Virus record (IMG/VR): IMGVR_UViG_3300049847_000416
Location: 1 to 64,000 of that record
Strand: one strand, 5' to 3'
Source of the DNA: a virus
DNA: 64,000 bases
In this document: piece by piece, positions 11,526-40,209 of the stretch
How positions within the stretch are numbered: the stretch's first letter is position 1
Layout of the letters: every line of letters starts with the position of its first letter
Translations under genes and position numbers: made by a program
Notes under the pieces: generated by a model
Databases searched by the model: none
What the model was told of the DNA's origin: nothing
What the model saw: only the letters and a program-made list of their open reading frames with translations

Positions 11526-14051
11526 TTATGATCGTAGGCTGGAAGCCGCTACGTTCCAAACGCGCTTGGCTTCCGCCACGGGATCTTTGTAGCTGTCTAC
11601 CACAATCTCCTGGTATGGATAGGTAGCTTGCACATGTTTCCGGCGATTGTGTGCGGATATCGCGAACGGGTGCGGCAACGAGATGCCGTACCGGCCCGGT
11701 GGGGACGTTAGAGCCACGTCGAAATACACGGCGTAGGGCTTTGTTTCGTGGAGCCGCATCAATCGGCCAATGGACTGGATCGTACCTTCCCAGTTGCCTT
11801 GAGACACGCCGACGCCGGCACTCAGGGTGTGCACAGACGCGCCCTTCGCAAACGTAGCATTGGTGGCTACCAGAACGTCTTCGGTCTTTGTCGCCGACAT
11901 CTCTTTGCGCTTACTGTACCGCCGCGATTTCGATATCCGGCCCGAGTGCTCAAATGGATGCAGGCCATACGGACGCAGTGCCGCACAGACTCGGCTAATG
12001 TGCTCGCGGTAGTGGCAGAACACGACTGGAGAAAATTTCTCCAGACTCAGTTGAAACGTCAGTTCCGCAGTGAAAGCGTGGAGCCACTCATTTTCCATGA
12101 TGTACTTTTTGTGGAGGTCCAGGGGTCGCAGATCGCCATCCGTTGCCACCACCATAGGAATGCTGACACCAAAAGTAAGCACCTTAGTAACGACTTTCGC
12201 CGCCAGGGCTTCCCCAGGAGTGTAGTAAATGATTTCAGGACTTGAGAGTAATTGAAGAAGTTGGCCTTTCTTATAGGGTTTATCGAGATCAAACGTGCCC
12301 GTCAGACCGAACACGACTTTGGGTTCTACCGCGTGCACAGCACGCAGAGCCCTTGCATTTATCTGAGTATGTACTTCGTCAACAAACACAACGTCGGCTC
12401 CCTGAAGGAGCTTTGCGGCTTTGGTGTGTGAACTCTGAAACAAGCAGACCGTCACCCGCTGAACGTCGTGCTTACCGGCCCCAACGAGCCCCACCGGCTC
12501 CTGGAGAACTCGCTGAAGGTCGTCACGCGTCTGCTGGCCCAAAAGTTGGTCGTCTACGAAGAATACAGCACGACCTTTCAACTGCCGGCAGTAGTGGCCA
12601 GCGATGAACGTGTTGTGTGTCAGGATGCAGTGATCCGTAACATACAAGCGATCAGGTGCCGCTACACGGATGCACTGCTGCTCCACGTCTCTCACGTACT
12701 CAACGGATATAACTGGACGTTGCGGTTCAGCACACTTTCCCCTGACTTTAGCGGCTATGAGGGCTTTGCGCACAAGACGGAATGGAGCAATCGCTGTTGG
12801 CAACTTCAGTACCAACTCGTATTCCACGCTCTTGCGCACGTACTGCTTATCACCAACCCTGTAGGTCTGGCCACGCCGGTCGTAAGACCTAACGCGCACC
12901 GATCCTCCGAGCCCCTCAACAAGCTCTGACACTTGCTGCACTAGGGGCTCCACACACGTGGAAAAGCTGAGAGACCCGCTGGACTTAGAGATGGTACCAT
13001 CTGCATCCATGAGGCCCTGCAACAGGGCAACACGGAAGGCAGGAGAAGCGTGGAGAGCTTCCCGAGGAATGTGCTTGTACTCAGCGTCCTCCCGACTAAA
13101 GTGGGTCCACACATACTGCTGTAGCTCAAGTCCGGGAGCAAACCGGTGAGAACGGGTTCCCTTAGGCGTGTACCCGTCAGTAGCGCTACTGAACTGATTC
13201 TTCACGTCGTCCGCATCACGGGAGTCACAGTAGATAACCACTTGGCAGTTTCGGTTAGTTAACAAAGACCCGTTCCCGATGAAGTACCCGAGTTCGTAGC
13301 CAGAGATTCCTGCGGGGTCTGCACCCGCGAACTCCACAGGAGCAGAGAGCATGGGGATGCGATCTTTCCACACGAGTCTGTTTGTGGCGTTCAACACGGC
13401 TGGTCGCAGATCCTGTGTGCGGACGGTGTGGTACCGTCCAGTACTAGAGCGCTCAACCGTCCATAAGTGATCGGCCCCTGCCTCGACTGAAGCACCGTCT
13501 CCAAATGTAACACGGTAGGCAGGCTTGACACCTTGAGGGTAGATAGCCAGCACCTGGGTGGGCTTTCCGTTGCTCCCGACTACGTAGTCCCCGACCTTCA
13601 GCGCCCCCATGGTCGTCCAACCTTCCGGGGTGAGAATAGGCGTGTCTACTGGCTGCTCTTTGCCACTGCTGGTGGAGGCTAGGATGAGACCACCCCAACC
13701 CATCCGCCCGTCAATCATCTCAGTCAGAATCTCATGCTGCTTACCGACAAGCTGGCTAGGGTCTAAGCCATCCATGGTGACATCGGGTGGAGTGCGCGTA
13801 TCTTCCCACCCGGTGTAGTACTCCATGATCGCGTCGTAGTGGTGCAGAAACGTCGCTGTGGGGATCTCGTCCCTGTGCACCGGAACAATCGGAGGGACAG
13901 GCCGCTCACTCTTGTAAACGTGCTTCATTTTGTACTCTTCCGGCGTATCTGGGTACGACAAACGCATGTGCAGCCGGTCATCATGTTGCACCAAGTCCGA
14001 TAGACCCGGCACGAACGTAAGCATGTTGCCGATTTGGACCATGGACGACAT
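11526..14051 (-). CDS. SF2 DEAD/DEAH-type helicase (UvsW-like) interrupted by an intein
   Basis: An 841-residue precursor; the start ATG 14051 overlaps the upstream stop as TGATG. After removal of a 349-residue intein, the host protein is about 492 residues: Q-motif region GLDPSQLVGKQHEIL, Walker A STSSGKT (split by the intein between Lys131 and Thr481), Walker B VVFVDEVH, motif III GLTGTF, and motif VI QSIGRLMR. This matches phage UvsW-type helicases, which act in recombination and fork rescue. It lies between tail-tip genes and the PAS gene, away from the main replisome operon. Confidence 0.88.
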   Translation of the reverse strand: MSSMVQIGNMLTFVPGLSDLVQHDDRLHMRLSYPDTPEEYKMKHVYKSERPVPPIVPVHRDEIPTATFLHHYDAIMEYYTGWEDTRTPPDVTMDGLDPSQLVGKQHEILTEMIDGRMGWGGLILASTSSGKEQPVDTPILTPEGWTTMGALKVGDYVVGSNGKPTQVLAIYPQGVKPAYRVTFGDGASVEAGADHLWTVERSSTGRYHTVRTQDLRPAVLNATNRLVWKDRIPMLSAPVEFAGADPAGISGYELGYFIGNGSLLTNRNCQVVIYCDSRDADDVKNQFSSATDGYTPKGTRSHRFAPGLELQQYVWTHFSREDAEYKHIPREALHASPAFRVALLQGLMDADGTISKSSGSLSFSTCVEPLVQQVSELVEGLGGSVRVRSYDRRGQTYRVGDKQYVRKSVEYELVLKLPTAIAPFRLVRKALIAAKVRGKCAEPQRPVISVEYVRDVEQQCIRVAAPDRLYVTDHCILTHNTFIAGHYCRQLKGRAVFFVDDQLLGQQTRDDLQRVLQEPVGLVGAGKHDVQRVTVCLFQSSHTKAAKLLQGADVVFVDEVHTQINARALRAVHAVEPKVVFGLTGTFDLDKPYKKGQLLQLLSSPEIIYYTPGEALAAKVVTKVLTFGVSIPMVVATDGDLRPLDLHKKYIMENEWLHAFTAELTFQLSLEKFSPVVFCHYREHISRVCAALRPYGLHPFEHSGRISKSRRYSKRKEMSATKTEDVLVATNATFAKGASVHTLSAGVGVSQGNWEGTIQSIGRLMRLHETKPYAVYFDVALTSPPGRYGISLPHPFAISAHNRRKHVQATYPYQEIVVDSYKDPVAEAKRVWNVAASSLRS
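12612..13658 (-). other. Class 3 intein with LAGLIDADG endonuclease, in helicase P-loop
   Basis: Residues 132-480 of the precursor. The N-terminal residue is Glu (EQPVDTPILTPEGW), so the usual Cys1/Ser1 nucleophile is missing. The class 3 WCT set is present: Trp66 in DHLW (block B), Cys329 in QQCIRV (block F) and Thr347 in LTHN (block G), followed by a Thr +1 extein residue. The endonuclease region has two LAGLIDADG-like motifs, LGYFIGNG (about 123-130) and LLQGLMDADG (about 212-221). The first carries Asn where the catalytic Asp is expected. It is clearly homologous to the terminase intein. Confidence 0.9.
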
Positions 14052-15277
14052 CAGCCACCCACCTTTGTGCGGCTGCTGAAGTAGGATACGCCCCCCGTTT
14101 CGCGAGCGGTGTGTAACCGAACGATGTACAGTCCCGATGCGTCCGTAGGACCATCTGTCTCGAAACCAAACACGTAGGGGAATCCGACCGACACGAATTG
14201 TGACTCCAACCAATCAACTGAGGTGTACGGGTTCTTTGGGAACACAAGATCGTAATTGAAGTAGTCCCCGGTCATGGTTTTCCAGGGACTGAAGAACGTA
14301 GCGGACCGGGCTGGGTCCGACACAACGCCACGGATCCGGGTAGGCGTGGCCGTCGTCGCCTTGGCGGTCACTCTGATAGACAATGCGTGGATCGGTCCCA
14401 CCGGCGTGCACTTGTCGATCCCAAAGAGCGCCAGGCCTTGGCCTGAGATCAGGGCATGGTTGTCTGTGATGTTGGGGTAGGAAGGCCCCCAGGGGGCTAC
14501 ATTCCGCGCTCGCAGCACGCCGCCCACGCGTGGGGGCTCCTGGGTGGCCAGAAAGGGCCACTGAAAGGTTGGTGTCCACCCGGTTACCTGCACGTCCGCA
14601 GTTTCCCAGGGTGCAATCAGAGCGACCGAAACTCTACCGTAGTCTACATTAAAGTCGCTGGCTGCATAGAAGTGTGCCACCGCAACGCCTGCGCTGCCGA
14701 AGTTTTCCAACTCGTGCACGGTCATGCTGTTGTACAGTGGGGTATTGGCCCAGCATTGGGCGTTGACGGTTGCAAACAGTACCCGGTTCCGGTAGATACG
14801 GACCCGATTGTTTGGAGCATCCACTTTCAGATCGAGATGTACCCAAGTTGGGGTGGACGACGGCCCGCTGTCCAAAAAGAAATTCGGCGGGGAGGTATAG
14901 ATGATCGTCCCAGAGAACTGCCCACCCGGTCGTCCGACGTACAGTTCCAGCCGGCGGTCAGGCGTAACCGCCAGGGCCAGGGACTGCACGTTGTTGTAAC
15001 TCAGGTGAGAGAACACGGTGCGGAGATTCCAGGATCCCGACAGGTTGATGGGGGCGCACCACATGCCCCAGTCCACCACCCCACTGGCGACGGTGTCGTA
15101 CCCGTTCGTATTGAAAAACGACTGTCCAAAGCCCGAGTTGAACACGAGGATGCCCTGCTGCAAGTACTGCCCGGCCTGCGGAAAAGCATCCTGTGTAAAA
15201 GTGAACTGCGTGAACCCAATGTTCCCGTATTGCAGGGACATGTTGGAGGTCGTCGAGAACGAGTCAAAGTACAGCAC
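14051..15277 (-). CDS. Virion structural protein, lectin-like (tail tip/fibre region)
   Basis: A 408-residue, beta-rich protein (GTG start). The N-terminal half has a concanavalin/LamG-like pattern, with a SLALAVTPDRRLELYVGR strand pair and a WVHLDLKVDAPNNRVRIYRN strand pair, as in phage adhesin modules. The C-terminal half, SGLYIVRLHTA, is unrecognised. It follows the hub-like and other tail genes and resembles the lectin-like protein at 17947-18951 in style, so a tail tip or fibre role is inferred. Its start lies 6 nt from a -10 element, suggesting a leaderless mRNA in addition to read-through. Confidence 0.65.
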   Translation of the reverse strand: MLYFDSFSTTSNMSLQYGNIGFTQFTFTQDAFPQAGQYLQQGILVFNSGFGQSFFNTNGYDTVASGVVDWGMWCAPINLSGSWNLRTVFSHLSYNNVQSLALAVTPDRRLELYVGRPGGQFSGTIIYTSPPNFFLDSGPSSTPTWVHLDLKVDAPNNRVRIYRNRVLFATVNAQCWANTPLYNSMTVHELENFGSAGVAVAHFYAASDFNVDYGRVSVALIAPWETADVQVTGWTPTFQWPFLATQEPPRVGGVLRARNVAPWGPSYPNITDNHALISGQGLALFGIDKCTPVGPIHALSIRVTAKATTATPTRIRGVVSDPARSATFFSPWKTMTGDYFNYDLVFPKNPYTSVDWLESQFVSVGFPYVFGFETDGPTDASGLYIVRLHTARETGGVSYFSSRTKVGG

Positions 15278-15283
15278 GTGTTC

Positions 15284-15292
15284 AGTATAGCA
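15284..15292 (-). promoter_or_regulatory. Extended -10 promoter, leaderless start
   Basis: TGCTATACT on the minus strand, then six bases, then the GTG start at 15277. It sits in the 20-bp gap after the hub-like gene, within a small palindrome (gtatagcacgctgctatac). Confidence 0.6.
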
Positions 15293-15297
15293 CGCTG

Positions 15298-17943
15298 CTA
15301 TACGAAGCCACGTAGCACGACCGAAACGTCGGTCACCGCATTGGAACTGATTTGAACGATGTCGATGGTTATCAGATCACCCTCGAACAAATTGGACTGA
15401 AGCCAGGGGCCACCATAAGTAAGCAGAGTGCCACCCAAGTTCCCCACTGGGATTTCCACAGGGTACTGATTGATGAGCAGGCCATTGCGCTTCAGATTGA
15501 ATTTCACCGACGCGCCAGAGACGGCAGTTGCAGACTTGAATGTAACCGCGATATCCCGGACGGACACAGACTTCTGCCGTACTGGGAAGGCGTTCGTAAC
15601 ATTCACGCCCACCTCGATGCCCGTATTGGCTACCGACGGAGACGAGGACGCCGCCAAGTTGAACATAGCCACGTCCGTGGACGGCTTGGACTGGTTGGAC
15701 AGCCGCTTAATGAGACGCGAGAACGCAGCGATTCCGTCGCGTTGAGCGATGGTGTTCGAGACTTTCAAGGAAGTCCGCAGCAGGGTCATTGCCTCTTCCC
15801 TCCACGACATGGACTCCACCTTGTACAGTGTATCGGTCAAGATGTTCAACTTAGGCAGATTCACCATGCAGGACTGACCGGGATCCCAGTCCACTGTGTC
15901 GGTGTCGAATGTGATCTCGCTACCCATGCGGTTGTAACGTGCCAGCAACGCCTGCGCATACTGGAGCACCACTGCCGCATCCGTGTAGGTAGAGAAGTCT
16001 TCCACAGCTTCGTAGATGCCCGTGCCGAAGCCTTCGATACTCTGCCGAAGCGCGATCTCTGTTGGATCCGAGATCAGATCTGGAGGTGGTGAGCCGCTGG
16101 GGATCTCGATCACCACAGTCAATACGTCGCCGGCTTTCGGCCAATTGAAACTGGGTGTCAGAACGTCATACAGCAACTGAATGGTGTTGTTGCTCATCAC
16201 AGTCCATTTGTATGACGCAGGGGCCGGATCGCCAACCACATAAAACGGCTGAGGTACGCCGTTGAGACGGATCTCCACAATGCGTTGCACCTGTCCATCG
16301 TACGTGGTGTCGATCAGGAATGGAGCCCGCACGTTGGTGCCGCTCCCATCGACGAAAGTGTTGAGTTGCCACTGCTTGAAAAACGGGGTGGCTTCATCTA
16401 CACCAGCATTGTAGGTCAGGGTCAGCGTGTTCGACTGCACGGCAAAGATACCGGAGATACGTTGCTGGTTCCGGTACAATGCTCTGCTCTGCAACACTTT
16501 CAAATCCCGGAAAATTTCGGACTGCGGTCCTACTGTGACTTCGCGCACGTCAAACGGTGCAGCGGTGACGGCGGACGGCAGATCAAAGATACGCACATTG
16601 CGGTCGTTGTCTACCCGGAGATTGTAGTTCGTGAGGTTAGCCAGGTTCTGTAGGGCTTCAAGCAACGTAATGTTGTTGAATTCCACATCACCTGTCATCG
16701 CTACGTCTACCGGTGCATCTACCCACGTGAGCCCTTCAGGCGTGAGATAGTGCACGGCGATGTCTTGCATGATGGCGTTCAATGTCGGGAACTGCAAACG
16801 CGGGTACTTCGCCTTGATCACGCGGCGTTGCAGTGTGTAGTCGAATCCCGACAGGTTGATGTCGAACTTGACCTCGCTGGTAACGTCAGACTGGTAGCTC
16901 GATGCCACCTCATAGATCTGTCCCGCAAACTGCTTAACCCACTTGTTCGTGCGGTGTGGCATATCGCAGTAGTCCCCATCGTAATACCAGATGACTACGG
17001 GCATCCCGACTTCGGGGAAGAAAGGCATCGGCGGAACAAAGTCGGCACTCACAATCTGGTGGTCCACCGTCGCGCCAGCCAAGTGAGACGCGGGGGTGGA
17101 ACTGTAGTAACCAGGAGTGACAGAGAGCACGTTTCCAACACGCGCGTACACCCAGAAGTATTCGTTGTCCACCTTAACCAGGAAGTTATCGGAGGGGAAC
17201 GTCGCCGCGCTCACGACCGTCATAGTGGGATTCCCCACCGTGAAAGGCAGTGCCAACGTCGTGCGGTGTGTCGGAAAATTGTAGATAGCGTTCGGACGAT
17301 TCTTTACCTGAAACAACGTCATCCGCGCACGGGGAGTGAAGTTGAGTTGGACATCGCCTGACGCCGAGTTGGGAGCCACCCACTTGGTAAACTCCACACC
17401 CTTCACGTAAAACTTGAACCGCGTCTGGGTGGCTGGATCAAAGATGGCTCCGCCTTCACCCATGCGGATACGGAGTTTGAGACTCGTGTTACCCAGGGCA
17501 ACCGGAATGATCTCTGCGCCAGTGCCTTGCCGGATACGGAGGTTCTCCGAGACCAGAAGCTGGGCCGTCGGTCCAGCGAAGGTTCCGGTGTTTGGAACAT
17601 ACTCGACAACCAGCGTGTTTTGGACGGTGGCGGTTGGCGAGAGAAGCAGGGTCGTTCCCGGCTGGGGCACATACTCGACCACCAACGTGTTTTGAACGGT
17701 AGCAATGTACGCCACCTGAGAAAAGGTGGTAGAAAAGATCTGAGAAACGCGCCCTCGAACCGCATTCGCCGCCGCGCTGGAAAGCACTTCAGACGCGAAA
17801 ATCTCCGACGCCCGAGCGAGCGGGGTTGTACCCGTACTCGCTACAGCCGTGGAGATAATGTCCGACACCCGAGCAGCAGGATCAGTGCTGCTCGATTGGA
17901 CGGACGTGTCAATTATTTGAGATACGAGAGCTTCATCAGCCAT
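15298..17943 (-). CDS. Tail hub / baseplate-type protein
   Basis: An 881-residue virion protein. The N-terminus (~1-75) is Ser/Thr/Ala-rich and helical. Residues ~78-120 hold two copies of a TVQNTLVVEYVP beta repeat. The middle (GFDYTLQRRVIKAKYP, then NNITLLEALQNLANLTNYNLRVDNDRNVRI) matches the hub-domain pattern of siphophage tail proteins. Beta-sandwich material follows, and the C-terminus ends in a small domain (VSVVLRGFV). It lies among tail genes downstream of the tape measure, where the distal tail and hub genes usually are. Confidence 0.65.
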   Translation of the reverse strand: MADEALVSQIIDTSVQSSSTDPAARVSDIISTAVASTGTTPLARASEIFASEVLSSAAANAVRGRVSQIFSTTFSQVAYIATVQNTLVVEYVPQPGTTLLLSPTATVQNTLVVEYVPNTGTFAGPTAQLLVSENLRIRQGTGAEIIPVALGNTSLKLRIRMGEGGAIFDPATQTRFKFYVKGVEFTKWVAPNSASGDVQLNFTPRARMTLFQVKNRPNAIYNFPTHRTTLALPFTVGNPTMTVVSAATFPSDNFLVKVDNEYFWVYARVGNVLSVTPGYYSSTPASHLAGATVDHQIVSADFVPPMPFFPEVGMPVVIWYYDGDYCDMPHRTNKWVKQFAGQIYEVASSYQSDVTSEVKFDINLSGFDYTLQRRVIKAKYPRLQFPTLNAIMQDIAVHYLTPEGLTWVDAPVDVAMTGDVEFNNITLLEALQNLANLTNYNLRVDNDRNVRIFDLPSAVTAAPFDVREVTVGPQSEIFRDLKVLQSRALYRNQQRISGIFAVQSNTLTLTYNAGVDEATPFFKQWQLNTFVDGSGTNVRAPFLIDTTYDGQVQRIVEIRLNGVPQPFYVVGDPAPASYKWTVMSNNTIQLLYDVLTPSFNWPKAGDVLTVVIEIPSGSPPPDLISDPTEIALRQSIEGFGTGIYEAVEDFSTYTDAAVVLQYAQALLARYNRMGSEITFDTDTVDWDPGQSCMVNLPKLNILTDTLYKVESMSWREEAMTLLRTSLKVSNTIAQRDGIAAFSRLIKRLSNQSKPSTDVAMFNLAASSSPSVANTGIEVGVNVTNAFPVRQKSVSVRDIAVTFKSATAVSGASVKFNLKRNGLLINQYPVEIPVGNLGGTLLTYGGPWLQSNLFEGDLITIDIVQISSNAVTDVSVVLRGFV

Positions 17944-17946
17944 GCG

Positions 17947-18951
17947 TTACACAGTGATTTCGTAACCGATTTCAGCCGCATTATAGGCAGCGGCGGTCCA
18001 GGGCAAGCCTGTGTTGGGATCCACCAGGAAGGTGGCCCGGACTTCCCCGTACGTGGATGCCAGATCAAGATCTGGGCTGAGACTGACCGTGGGACCGCTC
18101 TTGGTGACCAGCGCAATCTTTCTGGTGCCAGGGTCCACTTTGCGAGCGAACACCGTATTCTGTACAGCCTTGATAGACTGCCCAGTGATGAGGGTGAGCG
18201 GCGGCTTGGTAAACAGGTCCCGTGCCCCCACCGTGTTGGCCTGATTGTAGGAGCCATCAAAGTCGAAGTTGGGGAGAGGGTCATCCACTTCGGTGTAATT
18301 GTTGGGGCCAGCCAGCGGAGTCCATTGGATCGTGGACCCGTCGCCCGTAGGCAGCCGGTGGGTGCTGGTGATCTCACCTTCCCACGTGTTGTTGGCTGCA
18401 CCCGACGCGTCATTGAGGTACACGTCTTGGAAGAACTGACCGCTGTACCAACAGATGCGGTCAAAGTCAGAATACGCACCACCGTACGAGGTGTCTCCCA
18501 CGAACGTGATGATCGGCGTATTGTGCAATCGGACTTCAATCGTGCCGGCTGCATTGACCAGCAGGTGAGCTTCCAGGTAGTACCACTGGCTGTAAGCAAT
18601 GGGGGCCGTAGACGTAGCAATGATGGTGTTCGCATTGTTGAGAACAACCACAAACCCCGATGCGTTGATTCCCACCTGGTATAAGATGTTTGTGCTGTTC
18701 TGGAAGGTCAAGAATGTAGCCTGACTGCTCACAAAGCTCTGCAACGCCCACCCGACGTACCCTTCAGAGATAGGGGTAAACGCAAAGAACGTGTTCCCAT
18801 TTCCGGTGGGACCACCGGAGTACGTCCCAGGAAACCGGCCCGGTTGGCCCACAACCACTGAGGCCGAAATAGACCAGCCCGGCGCGGCGGTAACCGCGTA
18901 AGTCTGAAACGGGCTGGGGTACATGATGGAATCGAATAGGAGGTTCGCCAT
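17947..18951 (-). CDS. Virion structural protein, lectin-like
   Basis: A 334-residue protein, beginning MANLLFDSIMYPS. Residues ~20-190 show the jelly-roll/LamG-like strand pattern (GWALQSFVSSQATFLTFQ, QWYYLEAHLLVNAAGTIEVR, ITFVGDT, DRICWYSGQFFQDVYL) seen in many phage tail proteins. The C-terminus holds a second beta domain. It is separated by only 3 bp from the hub-like gene, so the two are co-expressed. A distal-tail or carbohydrate-binding role is inferred. Confidence 0.65.
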   Translation of the reverse strand: MANLLFDSIMYPSPFQTYAVTAAPGWSISASVVVGQPGRFPGTYSGGPTGNGNTFFAFTPISEGYVGWALQSFVSSQATFLTFQNSTNILYQVGINASGFVVVLNNANTIIATSTAPIAYSQWYYLEAHLLVNAAGTIEVRLHNTPIITFVGDTSYGGAYSDFDRICWYSGQFFQDVYLNDASGAANNTWEGEITSTHRLPTGDGSTIQWTPLAGPNNYTEVDDPLPNFDFDGSYNQANTVGARDLFTKPPLTLITGQSIKAVQNTVFARKVDPGTRKIALVTKSGPTVSLSPDLDLASTYGEVRATFLVDPNTGLPWTAAAYNAAEIGYEITV

Positions 18952-18954
18952 GGG

Positions 18955-19401
18955 TTATCCTTGCTTCAACTTGATGATGCCTGTCACCGGCCAGACAACG
19001 CCGAAGCTACTGCCGTTGACCAGATAGGGAAGGCCTGTGACACCGGGGGACGACAGCCGCGCGATGAGGCGAGAAGTCGTGGGCACGCCGGTGTAAATGC
19101 ACAACACGAGTGAGTCCACGTTCTGCCCAGCAATTCCAGTCACACTGGGGAACGTGTAGTCGTCCGCATCCAGGATAACGTCATTTCCGACCACCGTACG
19201 CGTCTTGTTCAGTAGATTCGCGGCATTGAGTTGTGCACCAGCCGGGATGTCCGACAAAAACGTGTCGGTCAGTGCGTTAGGTGTGTACTGGGGAATCGTC
19301 CCTGACTCGTTCACCAAGACGAGACGGATGTTGTCGGTCACCCAGTTGAAGGATCCAGTAGCCTGCCACTGGAGGAATGGTGTGTAAATGATGTCTGCCA
19401 T
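18955..19401 (-). CDS. Tail protein, paralogue of the next gene upstream
   Basis: A 148-residue protein. It shares with its neighbour an N-terminal MxxxYTxFxxWQ segment, a NxLTDTxx...LVNExG...YTPN region, FLSDIPAGAQL and DADDYTFPSVTG. This pattern is common in small phage tail-tip proteins of unknown function. It overlaps the neighbour by one base at the stop/start. Confidence 0.65.
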   Translation of the reverse strand: MADIIYTPFLQWQATGSFNWVTDNIRLVLVNESGTIPQYTPNALTDTFLSDIPAGAQLNAANLLNKTRTVVGNDVILDADDYTFPSVTGIAGQNVDSLVLCIYTGVPTTSRLIARLSSPGVTGLPYLVNGSSFGVVWPVTGIIKLKQG

Positions 19402-19844
19402 TAGATGTCCGATAGGCTGAGGAGCTTGTCAACGCTGTTGGGCAGCAAGAAGATGAGGGCTGCACCAAATGGCGTAAAAGGGAAACCACTCACTGACGTG
19501 TAGTGGCAGATCAAGCGGGACGTGGCCGGGTTGCCAGTGTCGATCCAGAAGATGGCAGCGTCCACCTTGGACCCCGTCACTGCGGGAAAAAGCACGTCGG
19601 CAGCGTCCAGCACCACCTTCCGCGCGATCTGGGTAAGCGTCTTGCTCGTAACCGGAGCAGACACGAGAATGCTGCCGGCTGGCAACACATTGATGAATTC
19701 GTCCGCCGCGATATTCGGCGTGTATGTCGGGGCGGCTCCGGTCTCGTTTACCAGGCTGCACATGAGAGTGTCAGTGAGCGGATTGAAAGCTCCACCGCTC
19801 CACTGCCACATCTCAAATTTCGTGTATACAAAGTCCACATTCAA
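19401..19844 (-). CDS. Tail protein, paralogue of the next gene downstream
   Basis: A 147-residue protein, with conserved VYTKFEMWQWSGG, LVNETGAAPTYTPN, FINVLPAGSILVSA and DAADVLFPAVTG, aligning end to end with the 148-residue protein downstream. It lies just after the tape-measure gene, the usual site of distal tail proteins. The pair looks like a diverged tandem duplication. Confidence 0.65.
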   Translation of the reverse strand: MNVDFVYTKFEMWQWSGGAFNPLTDTLMCSLVNETGAAPTYTPNIAADEFINVLPAGSILVSAPVTSKTLTQIARKVVLDAADVLFPAVTGSKVDAAIFWIDTGNPATSRLICHYTSVSGFPFTPFGAALIFLLPNSVDKLLSLSDI

Positions 19845-19858
19845 TAGAATCGTTGGAC

Positions 19859-31324: not shown

Positions 31325-31371
31325 ACTGCCGGGAGGAGAACTGAACTTCCTCTAGAGTACCACAGGTCTGC

Positions 31372-31869
31372 TTACGACACAACCGTGGTGGTCGGCTGCG
31401 GCATGTTGCGGGGCTTCGCGAACGCGTAGACCGAGTGCGTGTAGTTCGGCGCACCGGCAGCGGTCAGGTTCAAGCGGACGTACCGCTTAACTCCTGCCCT
31501 GTAGGTGAAGAAGTGCAGCGCATTCGCCACGACGCCGGCGTCGGCGACGAACGGACCTGAACCGTACAGATCGGTGCCCAACGGCATCGGAGTGACGGGC
31601 TGCGGATTGAAGGTCGAGCGATTCTTCGGCGTGACGTACTGCTGGCTGTCCGCTAGCGGGGTCCAGGTGGCGTTGTCATCCGACTCTTCGATGGTGTAGG
31701 TGACCTTGTTAACCGCTGAGAGAGCAGTCACAGTCGGGAAGTGGACCAAAAATTCCACCTTGTCCATCGTGTTAAGCAAATCGATGGAAGGAAGCGCGGC
31801 AGAAGCATTCACGGTAGCGTTAAACGCGACCAAGAAGGGCTTCATGTTGTTGGTGAGATTGTTAACCAT
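31372..31869 (-). CDS. Virion structural protein next to major capsid
   Basis: A 165-residue protein behind an AAAGGAAAA site. It is beta-rich (KVEFLVHFPTVTALSAVNKV, then DDNATWTPLADSQQYV), with a repeat-like DNATWTP unit as in many phage decoration or fibre domains. It lies directly downstream of the major capsid gene, so a head decoration protein is likely but not shown. Confidence 0.6.
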   Translation of the reverse strand: MVNNLTNNMKPFLVAFNATVNASAALPSIDLLNTMDKVEFLVHFPTVTALSAVNKVTYTIEESDDNATWTPLADSQQYVTPKNRSTFNPQPVTPMPLGTDLYGSGPFVADAGVVANALHFFTYRAGVKRYVRLNLTAAGAPNYTHSVYAFAKPRNMPQPTTTVVS

Positions 31870-31896
31870 GTCTTGTTTTCCTTTCTGGTCAGCCGA

Positions 31897-33180
31897 TTAC
31901 GCGGAGATGACCAACTTGACCAGAGCTTCCGGCACCATGACAGCGCCGCCGACGCGCTTCCACGCGTAGATGACGGTGACAGCCTGATTCGCCCTGCTAT
32001 AGGGGTCAACCATGAAACGAACGCTCAACTGGTCAACCAGGAGATAACCCACCTTCAGGTTACCGAAGAGAACAGCGGCGTTGCCGTTGGCGACATTCGG
32101 CATCTGCTGGCTGCGCTTATACGGGAAACCCAGAACCATATTCGGTTCTTTTCCCGTATAATCCATATTCCACAGGTACCTCCCTTCCCCGTCCTTGAGG
32201 GTCCGCAACCGACGTGCGGTATCACGAGAGAACATGAAGCTGGCACCGTTCAGGTACATGGACTTCGGAGTCTCCGTGATGGAGATAAACGCGTCTGCCG
32301 AGATGTTGCTCGCATCACCCGAGAGAACAATCGGGATATCGACGTTGTTGAGAATGCCTTCCGGCTTGTTCCCAACGTTCGCGCCGGTCAGGATCTCGAT
32401 GTCTTCGGTCAGCGAGAAGGCCACGCCGATCTCGTTGCGGATGTCGCCGAGAATATCGAACATCGGATTCTGCTGGTCTTCACGCGTGATCTCCGCCTTG
32501 GCCGACAATTCAGCGGTGCGGATGATCTTTGCACCGTACTGCACGGTAGGAGTCTCGGGACGAACGTCGAGTTCGCCAACCCAGGTCGCACCACCGTGAC
32601 GCTGCCGGGTGGGACGGTGAGTCTCCACAGCCATCGTCGAGTACGTGCCGACAAGCGAACGCATGTCCGACAACTCAACCTGATTCAGGTTGATCAGATC
32701 GTTCACGAAATCCACCGGGGTGAAATAGCCACCCGAGGTATCGTTCGCGTTGGTCAAAGCCTTGACAGCTTCGACGCCGAACTCCGCTTCGAGGACGGCT
32801 TGTCTCTCGACGATGTGCTCAGCCTTGTAGCCCTTTCGCACGACGTGATCAAACGCCTTGATCACGGGATTGATGTGCTTTTGGTCGGAGGTATTAGCAC
32901 GCCGGCCAAGCTTGGCCTCAAGCGCCTCCAGCTTCTCGCCGAACTCACGTCCGTACTTGTCGATCAGTTGCTCGTTGTTCGCTTTCAGCTTCTCGTCCAG
33001 CTTGTCAGTGGTAAGAACTTTGTCGAACTTCGACTCGTGGGCGTCGATCACTGCGTTCATCTTGGTGATCTTTTCCAACGTATCGGACGACGCGGCGCGA
33101 TTGTTTTTCGTCGCTTCCTCGACCGAGGAGCGAAGCGCTGCTACGCCACTCGCGAGGTCGTCAATGGTCTTGCTATCCAT
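31897..33180 (-). CDS. Major capsid protein (HK97 fold) with delta domain
   Basis: A 427-residue precursor, start ATG 33180 behind AAGGAG. The first ~100 residues are a coiled-coil scaffolding (delta) domain, then the HK97 core: SGGYFTPVDFVNDLI, VETHRPTRQRHGGATWVGE, AELSAKAEITREDQQNP, SLTEDIEILTGANVGNKPEG, and SQQMPNVANGNAAVLFGNLK. The prohead protease encoded just upstream would remove the delta domain. Confidence 0.93.
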   Translation of the reverse strand: MDSKTIDDLASGVAALRSSVEEATKNNRAASSDTLEKITKMNAVIDAHESKFDKVLTTDKLDEKLKANNEQLIDKYGREFGEKLEALEAKLGRRANTSDQKHINPVIKAFDHVVRKGYKAEHIVERQAVLEAEFGVEAVKALTNANDTSGGYFTPVDFVNDLINLNQVELSDMRSLVGTYSTMAVETHRPTRQRHGGATWVGELDVRPETPTVQYGAKIIRTAELSAKAEITREDQQNPMFDILGDIRNEIGVAFSLTEDIEILTGANVGNKPEGILNNVDIPIVLSGDASNISADAFISITETPKSMYLNGASFMFSRDTARRLRTLKDGEGRYLWNMDYTGKEPNMVLGFPYKRSQQMPNVANGNAAVLFGNLKVGYLLVDQLSVRFMVDPYSRANQAVTVIYAWKRVGGAVMVPEALVKLVISA

Positions 33181-33302
33181 GATTACTCCTTGAAAATTTT
33201 CGTGAGCACTTGATCTCTCTGTGGAAGTGGAGTAACCCGGCTTCGACAAGCGGCTTCAGCCCGGCTGAAGTGCGATCTGGCTCTACCAAATACTATCGAA
33301 GC

Positions 33303-34199
33303 TTACAGAACCGCGATATGCGCCATCACCAAATTGGCTTTGATCGCACTCAGTTTATCCCGCATTTGGGCGTCCGCGTCCAACCCGGTCGCCGGATTCT
33401 CCAGAGTCAGGCCGATTCCTTTCGCATGCGCGGCTAACAGATCCACCAGCGTGGACTTGGCCACAGGGGTAGAAGCGTCTGTGATCAAAGCTGAGTGAAT
33501 GGCTTTGAGCGCCGCCGGCACAACTACCGGTCGGTCATCCACAATGTCCACAAACTGGTAGGCGGGGCCGTCGGTGTCGTCAAATACCAGGGAACCGAAA
33601 CCTCGCATTGAGTCGTGCTTGTTTTGAACCCATTTCTGGTATCGTGCAGTCGCCGCCACTGCGTCCCAGGGAGTGTCCCCCGGAGCAACCGGGAAGTACG
33701 ACGTGTGATTGTTGAGGGATTTCACGGCGTCCATGCGGCATTCCATGTTCGCTGGATCCATAACGACAGAAATTTCTTTGAGGCCACACTCGGTGATGTC
33801 GCGGCAGTCTGCGTCCGCGTTATATTGGTGCTTCACCAACCAAATGCCCACAGAAAAGTCTTTGAGCATGTCAGCCTGACACAGCTTCCGAATTTCTTGG
33901 GCTGCTTCCGTGGGGGCAAATGCGGCAGTAATGTGGAGTCCATGATTGTCTTCGTGGCCCATTTCCACCATGCCAAGGACGGACTGGTGCAAAGCACCAT
34001 ACGTCTGATGATTGTTCACAAGGCGGACCCGCTTTGTTGCCACCCGCTCTTGCAGGGTTTTTGTATATGCGCCCTTGGCGATCCGGTCGCCCGTGAGGTC
34101 AATACTCCAAGTAGAAGCGTAACCAGAGATGTACCCATGCGGGTACTGATCACTGGCCTTTACCTCAAACGCACCGCTTAGAACCTTTTCTTGTTTCAA
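33303..34199 (-). CDS. Prohead protease (HK97 S78-like)
   Basis: A 298-residue protein from TTG 34199 behind GAGGAAAG. It shows GYASTWSIDLTGDRIAKGAY, a catalytic His region VNNHQTYGALHQ, and a Ser motif ADMLKDFSVGIW, as in HK97-type head proteases. The C-terminal half (about 160-298) is extra and unrecognised. It lies between the MuF-like and major capsid genes. It cleaves capsid delta domains before packaging. Confidence 0.88.
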   Translation of the reverse strand: MKQEKVLSGAFEVKASDQYPHGYISGYASTWSIDLTGDRIAKGAYTKTLQERVATKRVRLVNNHQTYGALHQSVLGMVEMGHEDNHGLHITAAFAPTEAAQEIRKLCQADMLKDFSVGIWLVKHQYNADADCRDITECGLKEISVVMDPANMECRMDAVKSLNNHTSYFPVAPGDTPWDAVAATARYQKWVQNKHDSMRGFGSLVFDDTDGPAYQFVDIVDDRPVVVPAALKAIHSALITDASTPVAKSTLVDLLAAHAKGIGLTLENPATGLDADAQMRDKLSAIKANLVMAHIAVL

Positions 34200-34224
34200 A
34201 TCTTTCCTCTTCTATAGAATCGTC

Positions 34225-35067
34225 TCAAAGTACTGGGACGATCAAGGTCATTGAACACCGGCAGTTGACCAGTTCCTCATACGGCAAGGCCGGATCTCCC
34301 GGATACTGGCACTCGTATCCACCCACCATGAATGGCTGATCAAATGGAATCCGTTTTTGAGTCACCCCTGCGGTCTCGTGGGTGGGGCGCACCCGGTCGT
34401 CTTCTGTAGCTTTCCAGGTCTTGAGAAGCCCGTTTTGCCGATAGGACAGGGCTGCAATCTCGTACTGTCCTGCCATGCCCGCCGAGTGAATCTGCGTGCG
34501 CACCATTTGCAGTGCGCGAGCACTGCTGAATCCGAAAAACTGTTGGATCTTGAGAACAATCTGCTCTACAGTGAGCTTGGCGATGATGGCAGCCGTGATC
34601 ATCCGTTTCAATTGCAACTGGAGAGACAGCGCTACGCTAGACACAATCTCGGAGGCCTTCGCCCGGAAGCGATTGGCAAACCCGGTAATACTCCAGGGTT
34701 CTTGAGTCGCGGCCTTGCTGTTGTATTGGGTGAACAGCGCTACGAGGGGGCCGACCTCCGTGGACGCATCCCGGAATAGCCGAACCAAGAGAGGTTCCAA
34801 GTGTAGCCTCAGGTGGGTGACTATGACGTGATAAAGATTGTCAGGATTCTTTCTGGTCCGGTAGGCGGTGGCGGTAGCCCGAGCCAGGTCAGCATACACC
34901 CGAATGAAAGCCCGGCCATACTTCCGCTCTATCTGTGCATTGGTCCGCTGGAGATACAACCAACTTTGCGCAAAGCTGAGTTGGCCTTTAGTGACAAGAG
35001 AGCGAGGGAAGTACTCTCGCACGAGGGCAGAGGCGTACGGTCCGCTTTTAGGAGTGGTCAGGCACAT
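34225..35067 (-). CDS. Minor head protein, Mu gpF-like (head morphogenesis)
   Basis: About 280 residues from ATG 35067. The C-terminus holds the MuF hallmark: ARALQMVRTQIHSAG, then KTWKATEDDRVRPTHE, FDQPFMVGGYECQYPGDP and LVNCRCSM with paired Cys. The N-terminus is helical. These proteins sit at the portal in a few copies. Its start overlaps the end of the small zinc protein by 20 bp. Confidence 0.82.
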   Translation of the reverse strand: MCLTTPKSGPYASALVREYFPRSLVTKGQLSFAQSWLYLQRTNAQIERKYGRAFIRVYADLARATATAYRTRKNPDNLYHVIVTHLRLHLEPLLVRLFRDASTEVGPLVALFTQYNSKAATQEPWSITGFANRFRAKASEIVSSVALSLQLQLKRMITAAIIAKLTVEQIVLKIQQFFGFSSARALQMVRTQIHSAGMAGQYEIAALSYRQNGLLKTWKATEDDRVRPTHETAGVTQKRIPFDQPFMVGGYECQYPGDPALPYEELVNCRCSMTLIVPVL

Positions 35068-35146
35068 TGTCTTCGCAGCCCATTGGGCACGTGGCACTCC
35101 ACACGGGAGTGCCACAGAATGGGCAGTGCTTGTGCGGGGGTTTCAC
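35048..35146 (-). CDS. Small zinc-ribbon peptide (32 aa)
   Basis: An open frame starting GTG 35146 that overlaps the endolysin stop as GTGA, the same coupling used elsewhere in this genome. The product reads HCPFCGTP, then TCPMGC, a compact C-x2-C / C-x3-C zinc ribbon, ending DNVPDHS. The composition makes it unlikely to be a chance frame, but the size keeps confidence modest. Confidence 0.5.
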   Translation of the reverse strand: MKPPHKHCPFCGTPVWSATCPMGCEDNVPDHS

Positions 35147-35799
35147 CCGCACAGCCAATCTTGGTCTACGAGAACACCAGTGTCCCACTTCCAAGACACA
35201 AAATTGTGGTGCGCCACAATTCCTTTGTGGCTGCACGCCAGGGCGGGACACACGTCTAATCGCTGAGCTTTGGGAAGCGGGACGAGCGGGATATTCCAGC
35301 GCTTCGCGAGCATCTGCACCAACTCTTTGAGGGCTTGTTGCTGCGGTGGGGTGATTGCAGCCCAGAAGTCAAATCCCCGCCATGCCTTCGCCACATACTT
35401 CGTGGGTTCGTCCAGCGAACAATAGACTTTCCCGTACGTGTCCAGGAGTTGCTTGCCCTTCAGCTTCAGCGGTCCTTCACACACGACTTCAATTCCTATG
35501 GACCGTGTGTTAACGGATGTGGGACATACGTCCGTTCCGCCAATGTGCCAAGCCCACCCCTTGGCTGGATCAAAACATTGGTAGACCACGGACACACCTT
35601 TGACAGGTTTGTCTACCAAATAGGGGGTGGCGACTCTCACTTCGTGCCCGTCTTGCTTGTCTGCGACCCAGCCAGCGTATGCGCCGGCTGCTGTGTACCC
35701 AGCGGTGTAGTGCAACAAGATACGGTCATAGGTGGGAGTCCCTACGTGCGCCACCCATTGATTGGGTGCCAGAGAAAATTTCTGAGTGTCCAAAATCAC
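35143..35799 (-). CDS. N-acetylmuramoyl-L-alanine amidase endolysin (Amidase_2)
   Basis: A 218-residue protein. Zinc ligands are visible: His30 in ILLHYTAG and His197/198 in VAHHNF, with KWDTG (Lys204, Asp206) at the active site. WHIGGTDV and NTRSIGIEVV are standard for the family. It lacks a signal peptide and a separate wall-binding domain. It cuts the lactyl-L-alanine bond of peptidoglycan for lysis. It sits between portal and MuF genes inside the head cluster, away from any obvious lysis cassette. Confidence 0.88.
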   Translation of the reverse strand: MILDTQKFSLAPNQWVAHVGTPTYDRILLHYTAGYTAAGAYAGWVADKQDGHEVRVATPYLVDKPVKGVSVVYQCFDPAKGWAWHIGGTDVCPTSVNTRSIGIEVVCEGPLKLKGKQLLDTYGKVYCSLDEPTKYVAKAWRGFDFWAAITPPQQQALKELVQMLAKRWNIPLVPLPKAQRLDVCPALACSHKGIVAHHNFVSWKWDTGVLVDQDWLCG

Positions 35800-37163
35800 G
35801 TTTTCGAGCCCTCTACCAGGTCTTCAGCTTGGGGGTTGTCCCGGCTGTCTGCGGTGCTGTCGGGCTGATTGTTCGGATCCTCGCCACCCAGCACATCCAG
35901 TTCAGGTCCATCAATCGGCTGGACATTACCCATCCACGCCACGTCTCCCCAGGGAACGGGGTCGAAGCCCAGACCAAGCCGCTCATTCACGGCATTGATT
36001 GGCCAACCAGTGCTCACCAAGACCTTGGCCGTGTTGGCTTTGTCCATGAGCGCTTTGCGCATGGCCGTGTTCTTGGTGAGATCATACCGAATCTCGATGT
36101 CGTCACCCCAGTGTGGGGTGAGTGAGTTATTGAAACTCGCCGCGATCCAGTCCAGCATCGGCACCAGCCGGTCTTCCAGGAAGCTCAAACGCGCGGTCTG
36201 GGCATTGGAATAGTTGGGATCAGGAGTTGCGCCGACCAAGATGGCAGGCACTTGACAGATGGCGCAAAGTTCGTGCTTGGCGATCTCTCGGCCCTGCGTG
36301 AATTGCAGATCCGTGTGAGTCATCATCGTCTGCTGCCACTTCAGACCGCCCGTCAAGAGCATGGGGCTGTACAGATTCGCACCCGAGTACTGCTCTCGGA
36401 CCGATTCTTTCAGGTCCTCTCGCTGTTCGGGGGTGACAAACGAATCGGTGTAGAGCACACCGCTAGGCTGGGCGAAATTTTCCAGGAGGGCGGTATTCCA
36501 GGTGTGGGCGGCGTCTTCGTTCTGGATAGCTCGCACTGCCGCCGAGATGGGAGACAGGGACGTATATGGATTCAGGGGATCAGCATACCGCATGTACGAG
36601 ACTTCCTGCGGCGGGAAAGTGACATCAGGAGCCGAGCTAGACTCCATCCCCGATACCAACCGAAATCCCTTGATGAATTGGAGGGGATCGGTCACGACCT
36701 CCACCCAGTCAGGCCGCATGGGCCACAATTCTTTGACTTTGGTCCCACTGCGGGTGGTCTTTTTCTGGTCAGTAACCAGCACCTTCTGTGTGTACGACGC
36801 ACCAGCCAAAAATAACGAATACAACATCACAGAGAACAGGTCCCGCTTAGTCATGTGCGGGTTCGGTTTCTGGATCAAGAGTTCCAGTTCGTGATCTCGG
36901 ATAACCGTGTTCGTGCCCTTGTGGTGCACTTTCCAGTCAGGAGACACTAGCGACGTAGCCCAGTACTCCAGGCACGCACGAATCCACACAATCTGCTTCA
37001 CGCCGTGCTGGATGCTCTGTTGAAACGACAGAGGCGCACCCTGATTGGTGCGGATGCCAAATCCGCTACCAAACCCAGATGTACTACCGTACAACTGGTT
37101 CAGGCTGGCGAGCCACAGGTTCGCCTTACTCCGTCTGGGTTTCAGAAGACTGGTGAGATTCAT
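35796..37163 (-). CDS. Portal protein (HK97-type)
   Basis: A 455-residue protein. It shows QQSIQHGVKQIVWIRACLEY, LELLIQKPNPHMTKRDLFSV, YMRYADPLNPYTSLSPISA, VLYTDSFVTPEQREDLKESV and FLEDRLVPMLDWIAASFNNS, all typical of the phage portal family. It forms the dodecameric DNA channel. It is followed by endolysin, MuF, protease and capsid genes. Confidence 0.92.
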   Translation of the reverse strand: MNLTSLLKPRRSKANLWLASLNQLYGSTSGFGSGFGIRTNQGAPLSFQQSIQHGVKQIVWIRACLEYWATSLVSPDWKVHHKGTNTVIRDHELELLIQKPNPHMTKRDLFSVMLYSLFLAGASYTQKVLVTDQKKTTRSGTKVKELWPMRPDWVEVVTDPLQFIKGFRLVSGMESSSAPDVTFPPQEVSYMRYADPLNPYTSLSPISAAVRAIQNEDAAHTWNTALLENFAQPSGVLYTDSFVTPEQREDLKESVREQYSGANLYSPMLLTGGLKWQQTMMTHTDLQFTQGREIAKHELCAICQVPAILVGATPDPNYSNAQTARLSFLEDRLVPMLDWIAASFNNSLTPHWGDDIEIRYDLTKNTAMRKALMDKANTAKVLVSTGWPINAVNERLGLGFDPVPWGDVAWMGNVQPIDGPELDVLGGEDPNNQPDSTADSRDNPQAEDLVEGSKT

Positions 37164-37183
37164 TGGTTCACTGTTTAAGATCG

Positions 37184-37753
37184 CTACTTTTTCATCCGGC
37201 TGCGTAGGATCATAAGCGCACGGGTATGGGCTTCAGCCGCTTCCGCTTTCGTGATCCCCAATTTTTGGGCGATCTGGCCCATGGGACTATCCTGGAAGTA
37301 CTTGTGATAGATGACCGCGCGTTGAAGGGCAGTCAAGTGGGGCAGGGCATCCCGCAGTTGCTTCTTCAGGACCTGCATGTCGTGTGCTTCTTCCACAGCC
37401 GGGATACCGCCAAGCGTGGGGTCTGCCCGCTGCTGGTGAGGCGCGCCCCAGGGTTCGGTCCGCTTCATGTAGTTCATCTCAACGCGCATCAAGTCGAGAT
37501 ACGCCCCTTTGATGTGGGGGATCAGGAAAGAGGATAACGCGGAAGACTGGTCGTACCGATTGTGCGCTCGCATCACGCGAACTACCGCCGCACTCAGAAA
37601 GTCTTCGAATGTTGACGTGCCCGGATCCGCCGCCTTGAAGCTCTTGCAAGATCGCATGACGTACTGAACGATCATGGGGTAGACCTCGCGGGGCTGGCCG
37701 TCTTTGCCTTTAAGTTCGAGACTGAGGCGTGGGAACTGTTTGTGAGTTCTCAT
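37184..37753 (-). CDS. Sigma-70-family-like RNA polymerase sigma factor
   Basis: A 189-residue protein from ATG 37753 behind AAAGGA. Region 2-like: FEDFLSAAVVRVMRAHNRYD, then SSFLIPHIKGAYLDLMRVEM. Region 4-like HTH: LTALQRAVIYHKYFQDSPMG, then IAQKLGITKAEAAEAHTRAL. It lies between the large terminase and the portal. A phage-encoded sigma could direct late genes and may recognise the TGnTATACT elements found in this window; that link is inferred. Confidence 0.75.
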   Translation of the reverse strand: MRTHKQFPRLSLELKGKDGQPREVYPMIVQYVMRSCKSFKAADPGTSTFEDFLSAAVVRVMRAHNRYDQSSALSSFLIPHIKGAYLDLMRVEMNYMKRTEPWGAPHQQRADPTLGGIPAVEEAHDMQVLKKQLRDALPHLTALQRAVIYHKYFQDSPMGQIAQKLGITKAEAAEAHTRALMILRSRMKK

Positions 37754-37764
37754 GTATTCCTTTG

Positions 37765-40209
37765 TTACGGATTCACACGGGAAATTCCCGGTGTGGACAT
37801 CAAAAATTCGGTGCACATGGTGTTGAACGCGCCAGCGGTAGCGTCCCCGATATCATCGTGCAGATCGTTGTCGCCGGTCAGCCCGCAGATTTCCTGGAGC
37901 CAGTCTGTGGCCCAGACGCTATTGACCAACCAAACGTTTTGGTTCTGGGCTTGAGCCGCGAAGGGACTCCACCGGGCGCGTTTCGGTCCGCCTGGTGCTA
38001 CGCCCATGATGTTATATCCCGGCAAGGACCGGACGAAGTGGGACACCAAAGACTTACCGGACGCGCCAGGTTCCCGCTCAATGCGCTGAAACACGTTAAC
38101 ACCATCGGACTTCATCGTGCCAATCACCCGCTGTTCAACAATGGCGGGGTTCGACCGGAACCGCTGCATGTCTTCCACGACGATCCTGCCGATGGAATCA
38201 CGCGCCATGAGAATGCCCACGGTGTAATCAGGATCCGTGTTGGGCTTGGGATCGGTCGCCGCCAAATCCCAAAACCGCAAGCGCAGGCACTTTCCGGCAA
38301 CGGGCACCGGCTGCATCAGGAACCACTCGCGCTGGAACACCGCATCAGTACGGGTGGCCATCCAATCGCCATACCGGCGTTGCCGGTAAGTGAGAGGATC
38401 CAGGTTCTTCAGCGACTTCTCATATTGCACTAAGTCAATTGCGGGGTTGTCCTCGATATAGAACGGAATGTACGCAATGTCAGGGTCTTTTCCCTGGTTC
38501 AAAACGTATTTGTCCCGCAGGAAGATGTGCGAGATGCCACCCGGATTACTGACGAGTCTATAGCGCAACGGGATCGGATCCGTGATGACTTTGCGCAATC
38601 GCAGGAAGATGAACTCTAGCTGAGTCTGAGAAAACTGCCCGGCTTCGTCAATGCCGATGAAGTGGAATTCGGGACCGTCGTACTGGAACTTGTCTTGTTC
38701 CGTATTCATGTGACCGAACTTTAACACGGCCCCAGCCGGAAAGCGCACCTCATGGGTATCGCTGTTGAAGTGGAATGGGACGCCTGCCGCCTGCATCCTC
38801 CGCAAGGTGCGGTCCATAATCGAATTGGGAGACGCCAACTGACCAAGAGTTCGGCGCAGGATGAGCGCCCGGTAATTGGGCCGCGTCACATACTGCAACG
38901 CCGCCCGGATCAGGACTTCTGAATTGTGAGTCAGGATGTAGTGCTTCGTGCAGAACAAGTGGTCTTCGGCTTCCACCGCAATGCACGTACACTCTTCGGG
39001 CGCAACTGGCTCCACCGTGCGCACACTGCGCTTGGGCGCTACCATGCCCTTCTTTTTGGTGTAGTCAGGTTGATATAGTGCAACCTTGCGCGGAAGCCGG
39101 AACGGCTGGACCCACGATGGGAGCCTCAAGCTGATCGGGTACTCTATGCCCTTACCCGCCGCTGTGCGGTCGGCTGTGCTGATGACGGCTCTACCGCCCA
39201 GTCCTTCCACAAGCTCCCGGAAATTTTCTGCCAACTTATGGGAGGTAGTGTCAAACCGGATTTGGTGCGTGTTCTTCTTTCGGAACGCCATCCCGTCCGA
39301 GTCCATTAACCCCTGGAGAACGGCGATTCGGTAGGCGGGGGACGCACGGAGTGCGACTTCTGGGATAAACCGCTCGCCGGAGTATAGGCCGAGCAGACCG
39401 AGCTTATCCAGCGCATCGCGCTTACTGGCTCCGTAAGTTACGTGGAAAGAGTGCGTCCCTTGAGCCAAATACGTGCGGTCAGGAGATCCCAAGTGCACAA
39501 GGATGTCAGGTGCGTCCCGGTCGTCCATCGCGATGCTAACTTGCCGCCCAGCTAAAGAAGTAAGCTCACCATTACCGATGGCGTATCCTAGGAAGTACCC
39601 GTCTAGCTCAGGATCTGGTCCACAATCAAACTCCACTGGACCGCTTAGCATCGGGATCGTGTCAGCCTTGCGGGCGCTGAGGCCCCGCAGTTCATCCGTG
39701 CGTACCACTCGTGTCTGAAGAGGCTTCCGCCCCGTTACTTCCCGAGACACCGTCCACAAATGATCGTCGGCGGCAGTCACCGAACTGCCGTCAGAGAATG
39801 TAACACGGCTGCAAGGCCGAATACCCTGCGGATACACTCCGATGACCTTGGTGGGTTTGCCGTTGGAGCCGATGACGTAGTCACCTTCCCGGATGTTTCC
39901 GAAGCGTCGGTAACCCTGTGGAGTCGGTATAAGTTGTTGATTACAAAGGGCTTTGCCGTTACCACTTGCACCTCCGGCCATTGCTTGGTAGTGTGGCAAC
40001 ATGCAGAATGCCTTCTGCTTCGGGAACATAGGAAACACTTTCGTGTAGATGTTCTCCGTCTGCAAGTACTCTGCTTGGAACTTGCGCACGTCCACCATCC
40101 CCGCTCTCACTTTTTCCAGATTGGCTTGAAAAACAGAGAGGGGGAGCCCAGCCTTCCGGGCCATGTCTGCGTAGTCTATCGTGGGCAACTTAGTACTATC
40201 GTACCACAC
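37765..40209 (-). CDS. Large terminase subunit interrupted by an intein
   Basis: An 814-residue precursor; the first start is GTG 40209, with an ATG at 40164 (MARKAG) also possible. Walker A GGASGNGKS is split after Lys86 by a 343-residue intein. The mature protein is about 471 residues: Walker B FIGIDEAGQ, coupling motif SNPGG, nuclease acids RFWDLAATD and HDDIGDATAGAF. It is the packaging motor and nuclease. It is the most upstream gene of the head module, following a hairpin at 40235-40261. Confidence 0.93.
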   Translation of the reverse strand: MWYDSTKLPTIDYADMARKAGLPLSVFQANLEKVRAGMVDVRKFQAEYLQTENIYTKVFPMFPKQKAFCMLPHYQAMAGGASGNGKALCNQQLIPTPQGYRRFGNIREGDYVIGSNGKPTKVIGVYPQGIRPCSRVTFSDGSSVTAADDHLWTVSREVTGRKPLQTRVVRTDELRGLSARKADTIPMLSGPVEFDCGPDPELDGYFLGYAIGNGELTSLAGRQVSIAMDDRDAPDILVHLGSPDRTYLAQGTHSFHVTYGASKRDALDKLGLLGLYSGERFIPEVALRASPAYRIAVLQGLMDSDGMAFRKKNTHQIRFDTTSHKLAENFRELVEGLGGRAVISTADRTAAGKGIEYPISLRLPSWVQPFRLPRKVALYQPDYTKKKGMVAPKRSVRTVEPVAPEECTCIAVEAEDHLFCTKHYILTHNSEVLIRAALQYVTRPNYRALILRRTLGQLASPNSIMDRTLRRMQAAGVPFHFNSDTHEVRFPAGAVLKFGHMNTEQDKFQYDGPEFHFIGIDEAGQFSQTQLEFIFLRLRKVITDPIPLRYRLVSNPGGISHIFLRDKYVLNQGKDPDIAYIPFYIEDNPAIDLVQYEKSLKNLDPLTYRQRRYGDWMATRTDAVFQREWFLMQPVPVAGKCLRLRFWDLAATDPKPNTDPDYTVGILMARDSIGRIVVEDMQRFRSNPAIVEQRVIGTMKSDGVNVFQRIEREPGASGKSLVSHFVRSLPGYNIMGVAPGGPKRARWSPFAAQAQNQNVWLVNSVWATDWLQEICGLTGDNDLHDDIGDATAGAFNTMCTEFLMSTPGISRVNP
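38923..39951 (-). other. Class 3 intein with LAGLIDADG endonuclease, in terminase P-loop
   Basis: Residues 87-429. The first residue is Ala (ALCNQQLIPTPQGY). The class 3 WCT set is present: Trp66 in DHLW, Cys323 in TCIAVE, Thr341 in LTHN; the +1 residue is Ser. LAGLIDADG-like motifs are FLGYAIGNG (about 120-128) and VLQGLMDSDG (about 211-220). As in the helicase intein, Asn replaces the first catalytic Asp. Long stretches match the helicase intein (VIGSNGKPTKV, YPQG, RVTF, DHLWTV), so the two share an ancestor. Confidence 0.9.

Follow-up and report, generated by a model that had tools for sequence, protein, structure and literature searches.

Two inserts in a viral genome, one in the P-loop of a helicase and the other in the P-loop of a terminase large subunit, are very probably class 3 inteins with LAGLIDADG homing-nuclease domains, members of a single clade that inhabits the P-loop ATPases of a phage group. 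Elements of this type are well known. The pair is genuine, and alignment and phylogeny establish its common origin, but it is old, and on the same comparisons the two inteins, though close kin, are probably not each other's nearest relatives. Both lie in a 64,000-nt stretch of DNA (the window, meaning the whole of the DNA that was analysed), which belongs to a virus record of 95,140 bases. A profile built from both inteins found no third copy in the 95-kb record. The span 12612–39951 runs from intein to intein, and the 25 kb in between is outside the feature, whose parts are as follows.

11526..14213 (−): intein-interrupted gene for the helicase precursor (SF2, ResIII type); an ORF, with PF04851 in the C-extein (3.7e-8) and the PHROG assignment DNA helicase
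12612..13658 (−): putative class 3 intein 1, in the helicase P-loop, 349 aa, with a LAGLIDADG nuclease domain
13461..13463 (−): intein 1, codon for block B Trp66 (W of the WCT triad)
13272..13274 (−): intein 1, codon for Asn129 in nuclease motif 1 (IGNG), Asp in most relatives
12672..12674 (−): intein 1, codon for block F Cys329, the proposed first nucleophile (C in 139/139)
12612..12620 (−): intein 1, codons for Thr347-His348-Asn349; the +1 extein residue is Thr
37765..40209 (−): intein-interrupted gene for the terminase large subunit precursor; an ORF, with PF17289, PF03237 and TIGR01630 (1.4e-15)
38923..39951 (−): putative class 3 intein 2, in the terminase P-loop, 343 aa, with a LAGLIDADG nuclease domain
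39754..39756 (−): intein 2, codon for block B Trp66
39571..39573 (−): intein 2, codon for Asn127 in nuclease motif 1 (IGNG)
38983..38985 (−): intein 2, codon for block F Cys323
38923..38931 (−): intein 2, codons for Thr341-His342-Asn343; the +1 extein residue is Ser

The host proteins, a ResIII helicase (PF04851) and a large subunit of the Terminase_6N/6C, TIGR01630 type, are both P-loop NTPases but of different families. In the helicase the junctions (marked ^) read ASTSSGK^EQPV...ILTHN^TFIAG, with the insertion between the Walker A Lys and Thr; in the terminase they read ASGNGK^ALCN...ILTHN^SEVLI, with the insertion between the Walker A Lys and Ser. An earlier note on this DNA, made from its letters and reading frames, had placed both inserts after the Walker A Lys, exactly before Thr/Ser, and had described them as alike in length and sequence, and the junctions and alignment confirm it: the inteins have 349 and 343 aa and are identical at 154 of 358 aligned positions (43%, BLASTP E 1e-79), a value that rules out chance similarity. 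The DNA flanking the two insertion sites matches at 15 of 40 positions, essentially a GGCAAA core, and no longer recognition tract common to both sites was seen across the 40 positions compared, which makes it difficult to explain homing through sequence similarity alone.

The residues at the splice sites are those of class 3. Position 1 of the intein is Glu in the helicase and Ala in the terminase, with no nucleophile Cys, Ser or Thr there. The W-C-T triad is complete in both inteins: Trp66, two residues past the block B His; Cys329 or Cys323 at position 4 of block F; and Thr347 or Thr341 immediately before the terminal His-Asn (Asn349 and Asn343), which is followed by a +1 residue of Thr (helicase) or Ser (terminase). 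Among 139 non-redundant inteins (the pair and 137 relatives, described below) the block F Cys, the Thr and the terminal HN occur in every one, and the Trp in 138. Profile searches of the PDB with the splicing half gave class 3 DnaB inteins as top matches (6rix, MchDnaB-1, best at 7e-29, and 6bs8). An AlphaFold2 model of the helicase intein (pLDDT 92, pTM 0.91) matched PI-SceI overall in Foldseek (7.5e-17) and, over the splicing domain, the class 3 DnaB inteins with TMt 0.84–0.85 (MchDnaB-1 0.85). The earlier note had assigned both inserts to class 3 from the missing Cys1, the Trp, the block F Cys and the Thr before His-Asn; each of these is borne out in both inteins, and so, by the triad together with kinship to 6rix and 6bs8 in profile and fold, is the assignment itself. 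The Pfam splicing-domain model PF14890 misses both and finds only an intein in the ThyX gene of the window, so it is no test for class 3. The mycobacterial class 3 DnaB inteins (MchDnaB-1, 6rix; M. smegmatis DnaB, 6bs8) share with the window inteins the W-C-T triad, the lack of a position-1 nucleophile, the THN end and the HINT fold; they are mini-inteins in DnaB, whereas the window inteins retain LAGLIDADG and interrupt an SF2 helicase and a terminase. One relative (L080) stands alone in having Phe for the block B Trp, FCT rather than WCT, in an otherwise intact intein, and is a natural test of whether the Trp is needed.

In the class 3 route the block F Cys attacks, a first branched intermediate forms, and transfer to the +1 residue follows (PMC4031507). 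In the window proteins C329 or C323, aided by Trp66 and the Thr of THN, would attack the N-terminal splice bond; the N-extein would be handed to the +1 Thr or Ser and the Asn would cyclise, rebuilding the Walker A GK-T/S and leaving a competent helicase and a competent packaging motor.

The nuclease domain of both inteins, which lies between the splicing blocks and has two LAGLIDADG motifs, scores above the cut-off of the LAGLIDADG model PF14528, and Foldseek gave matches to PI-SceI and I-DmoI. The motif 2 Asp is kept in both (LMDADG and LMDSDG). Motif 1 is IGNG in both, with Asn for the usual Asp, and neither intein therefore has an acidic catalytic residue in both motifs. An Asn in LAGLIDADG motif 1 may leave the enzyme weak, able only to nick, or inactive. 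The predicted nuclease retains its fold; judged by these residues, its activity is doubtful, and cleavage may be weak or absent. The IGNG motif was considered as a private mark of the pair and rejected, as Asn recurs in 26 of the 139 inteins (Asp in 111).

The best outside matches in INPHARED are at 38–39% identity (Phrappuccino gp2), and next come helicases and terminases of many phages. Querying IMG/VR with single intein proteins yielded few or no loci; alignment queries were productive, and alignment-based scans of IMG/VR and GTDB genomes gave ∼280 intein copies. Insertion directly after the Walker A Lys was found in 126 of 137 non-redundant relatives, in many ATPase families: insertion at GK^S/T is a habit of the family and no peculiarity of the window pair. 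Actinobacteriophage class 3 inteins (Phrappuccino gp2, Bixzunavirus helicases such as that of Stubby, and Omegavirus TerL) are like the window inteins in class and length, at 32–39% identity, and those of Phrappuccino and Stubby occupy the same site, directly after GK; in the tree the actinobacteriophage TerL and helicase inteins fall outside the clade of the window pair. Elsewhere in the family, pairs such as L067/L122 share one helicase P-loop site, with exteins 65–73% identical and inteins of two clades 37–40% identical, which marks repeated independent occupation of one site.

A sister phage is represented by two IMG/VR contigs from one sample, 3300049825_000401 (L185) and 3300049825_000268 (L186), syntenic with the window at 40.2–36.1 kb and 18.6–6.2 kb, respectively, and likely belonging to one genome. 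The L185 terminase has a C-extein 81% identical to that of the window and an intein at the same GK^S. The syntenic L186 helicase, with a C-extein 73% identical to the window's, is intein-free and reads continuously through TTSGGK^TWLAG, so that a close relative carries an intein-free allele of the helicase site. The sister terminase intein also has GNG in its nuclease motif 1, and another portion of its nuclease domain has been lost. Despite the 81% identity of their exteins, the window and sister terminase inteins are only 42% identical; other same-site pairs with C-exteins at least 75% identical have inteins 63–98% identical or more. Either these two terminase inteins have evolved unusually fast, or one has undergone replacement by, or recombination with, another member of the clade, and on both readings the split between the helicase and terminase inteins is not recent. 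A 10-aa insert common to the helicase and sister inteins was dropped as proof of kinship; other members have inserts there too.

The two window inteins and the sister terminase intein (hereafter the trio) form a clade with support of 100/98 in a tree of 70 rows and 100/97 in one of 35 rows; the clade is also recovered from the nuclease domain alone (99/95) and from the splicing domain alone (89/85). A tree that puts the helicase intein among the neighbouring helicase inteins is worse by 36.6 log units and is rejected (p-AU 0.0145). The common descent of the pair, as proposed in the earlier note, is upheld by these results; the jump of one copy between P-loops inside one genome, proposed with it, is not supported. 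Of the three possible orders within the trio, the one uniting the helicase and sister inteins is best under a mixture model at full length, that uniting the two terminase inteins costs 4.1 (p 0.32), and that uniting the two window inteins is worst at 7.7 (p 0.21); the last is excluded under LG+F+G4 (p-AU 0.008) and by the nuclease domain alone (p-AU 0.033). Exclusive derived residues number 4 for the helicase and window terminase inteins, 17 for the helicase and sister inteins, and 19 for the two terminase inteins. The window copies are thus probably not each other's closest relatives, the sister intein being as near or nearer to each. A phylogeny placing each intein nearer to its homologues in the same gene of other phages had been named beforehand as evidence against a jump, and half of this is seen: for the terminase intein, the same-gene intein of another phage is equally near or nearer, and for the helicase intein this does not hold.

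We favour a history in which the trio clade, established at the terminase P-loop of at least two related phages, also supplied an intein to the helicase P-loop, either in the window lineage or from a close relative. The deep divergence would then reflect an old transfer, or terminase copies that were later replaced or recombined. Clade membership, the exact sites and the empty helicase site of the sister phage are shown; movement would have been driven by the nuclease, presumably towards the helicase site. As the mixture model rejects none of the three orders within the trio and the sister contigs are only assumed to be one genome, this direction and movement inside one genome are not provable. 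A recent duplication, with a copy of the terminase intein entering the helicase P-loop once the sister phage had diverged, would suit the sister helicase that is intein-free at the exact site and the placement of both inteins within one clade. It is nonetheless very unlikely, given an identity of just 43%, a split equal in depth to the one that separates the terminase inteins, and the last place of the corresponding order in both likelihood and derived residues (4 against 17 and 19), an order excluded under LG+F+G4 and by the nuclease domain but still at p 0.21 under the full-length mixture model.

It is possible, if doubtful, that the two inteins were instead taken up independently from outside, out of a diverse pool of P-loop inteins and for example during co-infection with related phages, with no move from gene to gene inside any one genome. 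The habit of inserting after the Walker A Lys of many ATPase types agrees with such uptake, as do the two intein clades that share a helicase site in other phages and terminase inteins that differ between the sister phages far more than their exteins do. The trio clade was, however, not found beyond the phage pair in pattern scans (non-exhaustive) of IMG/VR, INPHARED and GTDB genomes, and the pool would consequently have to be the phage group itself. A somewhat unlikely reading, compatible with the history we favour, makes the sister terminase intein a mosaic of a splicing domain from the terminase lineage and a nuclease domain shared with the helicase lineage, the two resident inteins having swapped nuclease halves by recombination. 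In trees of the separate domains, the two terminase inteins indeed join on the splicing domain (97/93), and the sister intein joins the helicase intein on the nuclease domain (98/92). The site likelihoods divide likewise (+7.6 and −8.7, with p 0.008 by permutation); but a circular-shift test gives p 0.14, AU tests on single domains leave some alternatives unrejected, and residues near the splice sites may converge, facing the same extein. We treat the mosaic signal as a lead, short of a result. The broader proposition, that resident P-loop inteins swap homing-nuclease halves while each keeps a splicing domain fitted to its host, is unlikely; if it is true, the P-loop inteins of a phage group make up a family that evolves with recombination among its members.

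To call the pair a rare within-genome invasion, as had been done, is too strong. About 84 records were searched whole for class 3 inteins. In none of the nine other two-intein class 3 records examined first was the partner the nearest relative (closest ranks 2 and 4), and a majority of the genomes surveyed that carry several such inteins have members not closely related to each other. Raoultella phage VB_ZK_P1 (PV662128.1; L295/L299/L293) has three class 3 inteins in one published genome. Two of them lie in separate P-loop genes, at 42243 and 187508; at 61% identity, against 43% for the window pair, they are a better candidate for recent within-genome spread. VB_ZK_P1 resembles the window in having class 3 inteins in the P-loops of two different genes; it differs in that its pair is closer and, by best matches, belongs to another branch of the family. 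Kindred inteins in different phage genes have also been published: the class 3 inteins of mycobacteriophage RecB and TerL1-d are related, lie in unrelated genes and share 48% identity (PMC5050341), and the cited passage does not place them in one genome, where the window pair lies. The GLT and CHS inteins of fungi, also in unrelated genes, have 48–57% similarity and were read as a case of intragenomic mobility (PMC5784728); these are nuclear inteins, unlike the phage pair of the window. What the window phage and its sister offer is a concrete setting for spread, with one small clade at terminase and helicase P-loops and an intein-free helicase allele in a closely related phage.

Several further inteins and hosts were noted. 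A third intein of the window, at 41121–42101, interrupts a ThyX thymidylate synthase ORF (40401–42332, −) that adjoins the terminase gene. Its junctions are THRTF^C...VVVHN^SRNSASS; it is of class 1 type, with Cys1 and a block F Asp, carries an HNH nuclease, and has its nearest phage match in Virus Rctr197k (48%). For the helicase C-extein, INPHARED gave no match; for the terminase C-extein (37765–38922), the nearest named phages are psiM100 and psiM2, viruses of methanogens (38%). The terminase of Gordonia phage GMA6 (L287), of the same terminase type and annotated only as terminase, has an uninterrupted P-loop and carries its intein at a different position (YKFQ^C...). Two proteins each have a pair of divergent class 3 inteins in one ORF: a phage P-loop protein (L283, G055:C1:21001-25259) and a PhoH-like protein from a Neisseriaceae MAG (L256), where one occupies the P-loop site and the other an RGR^T site.
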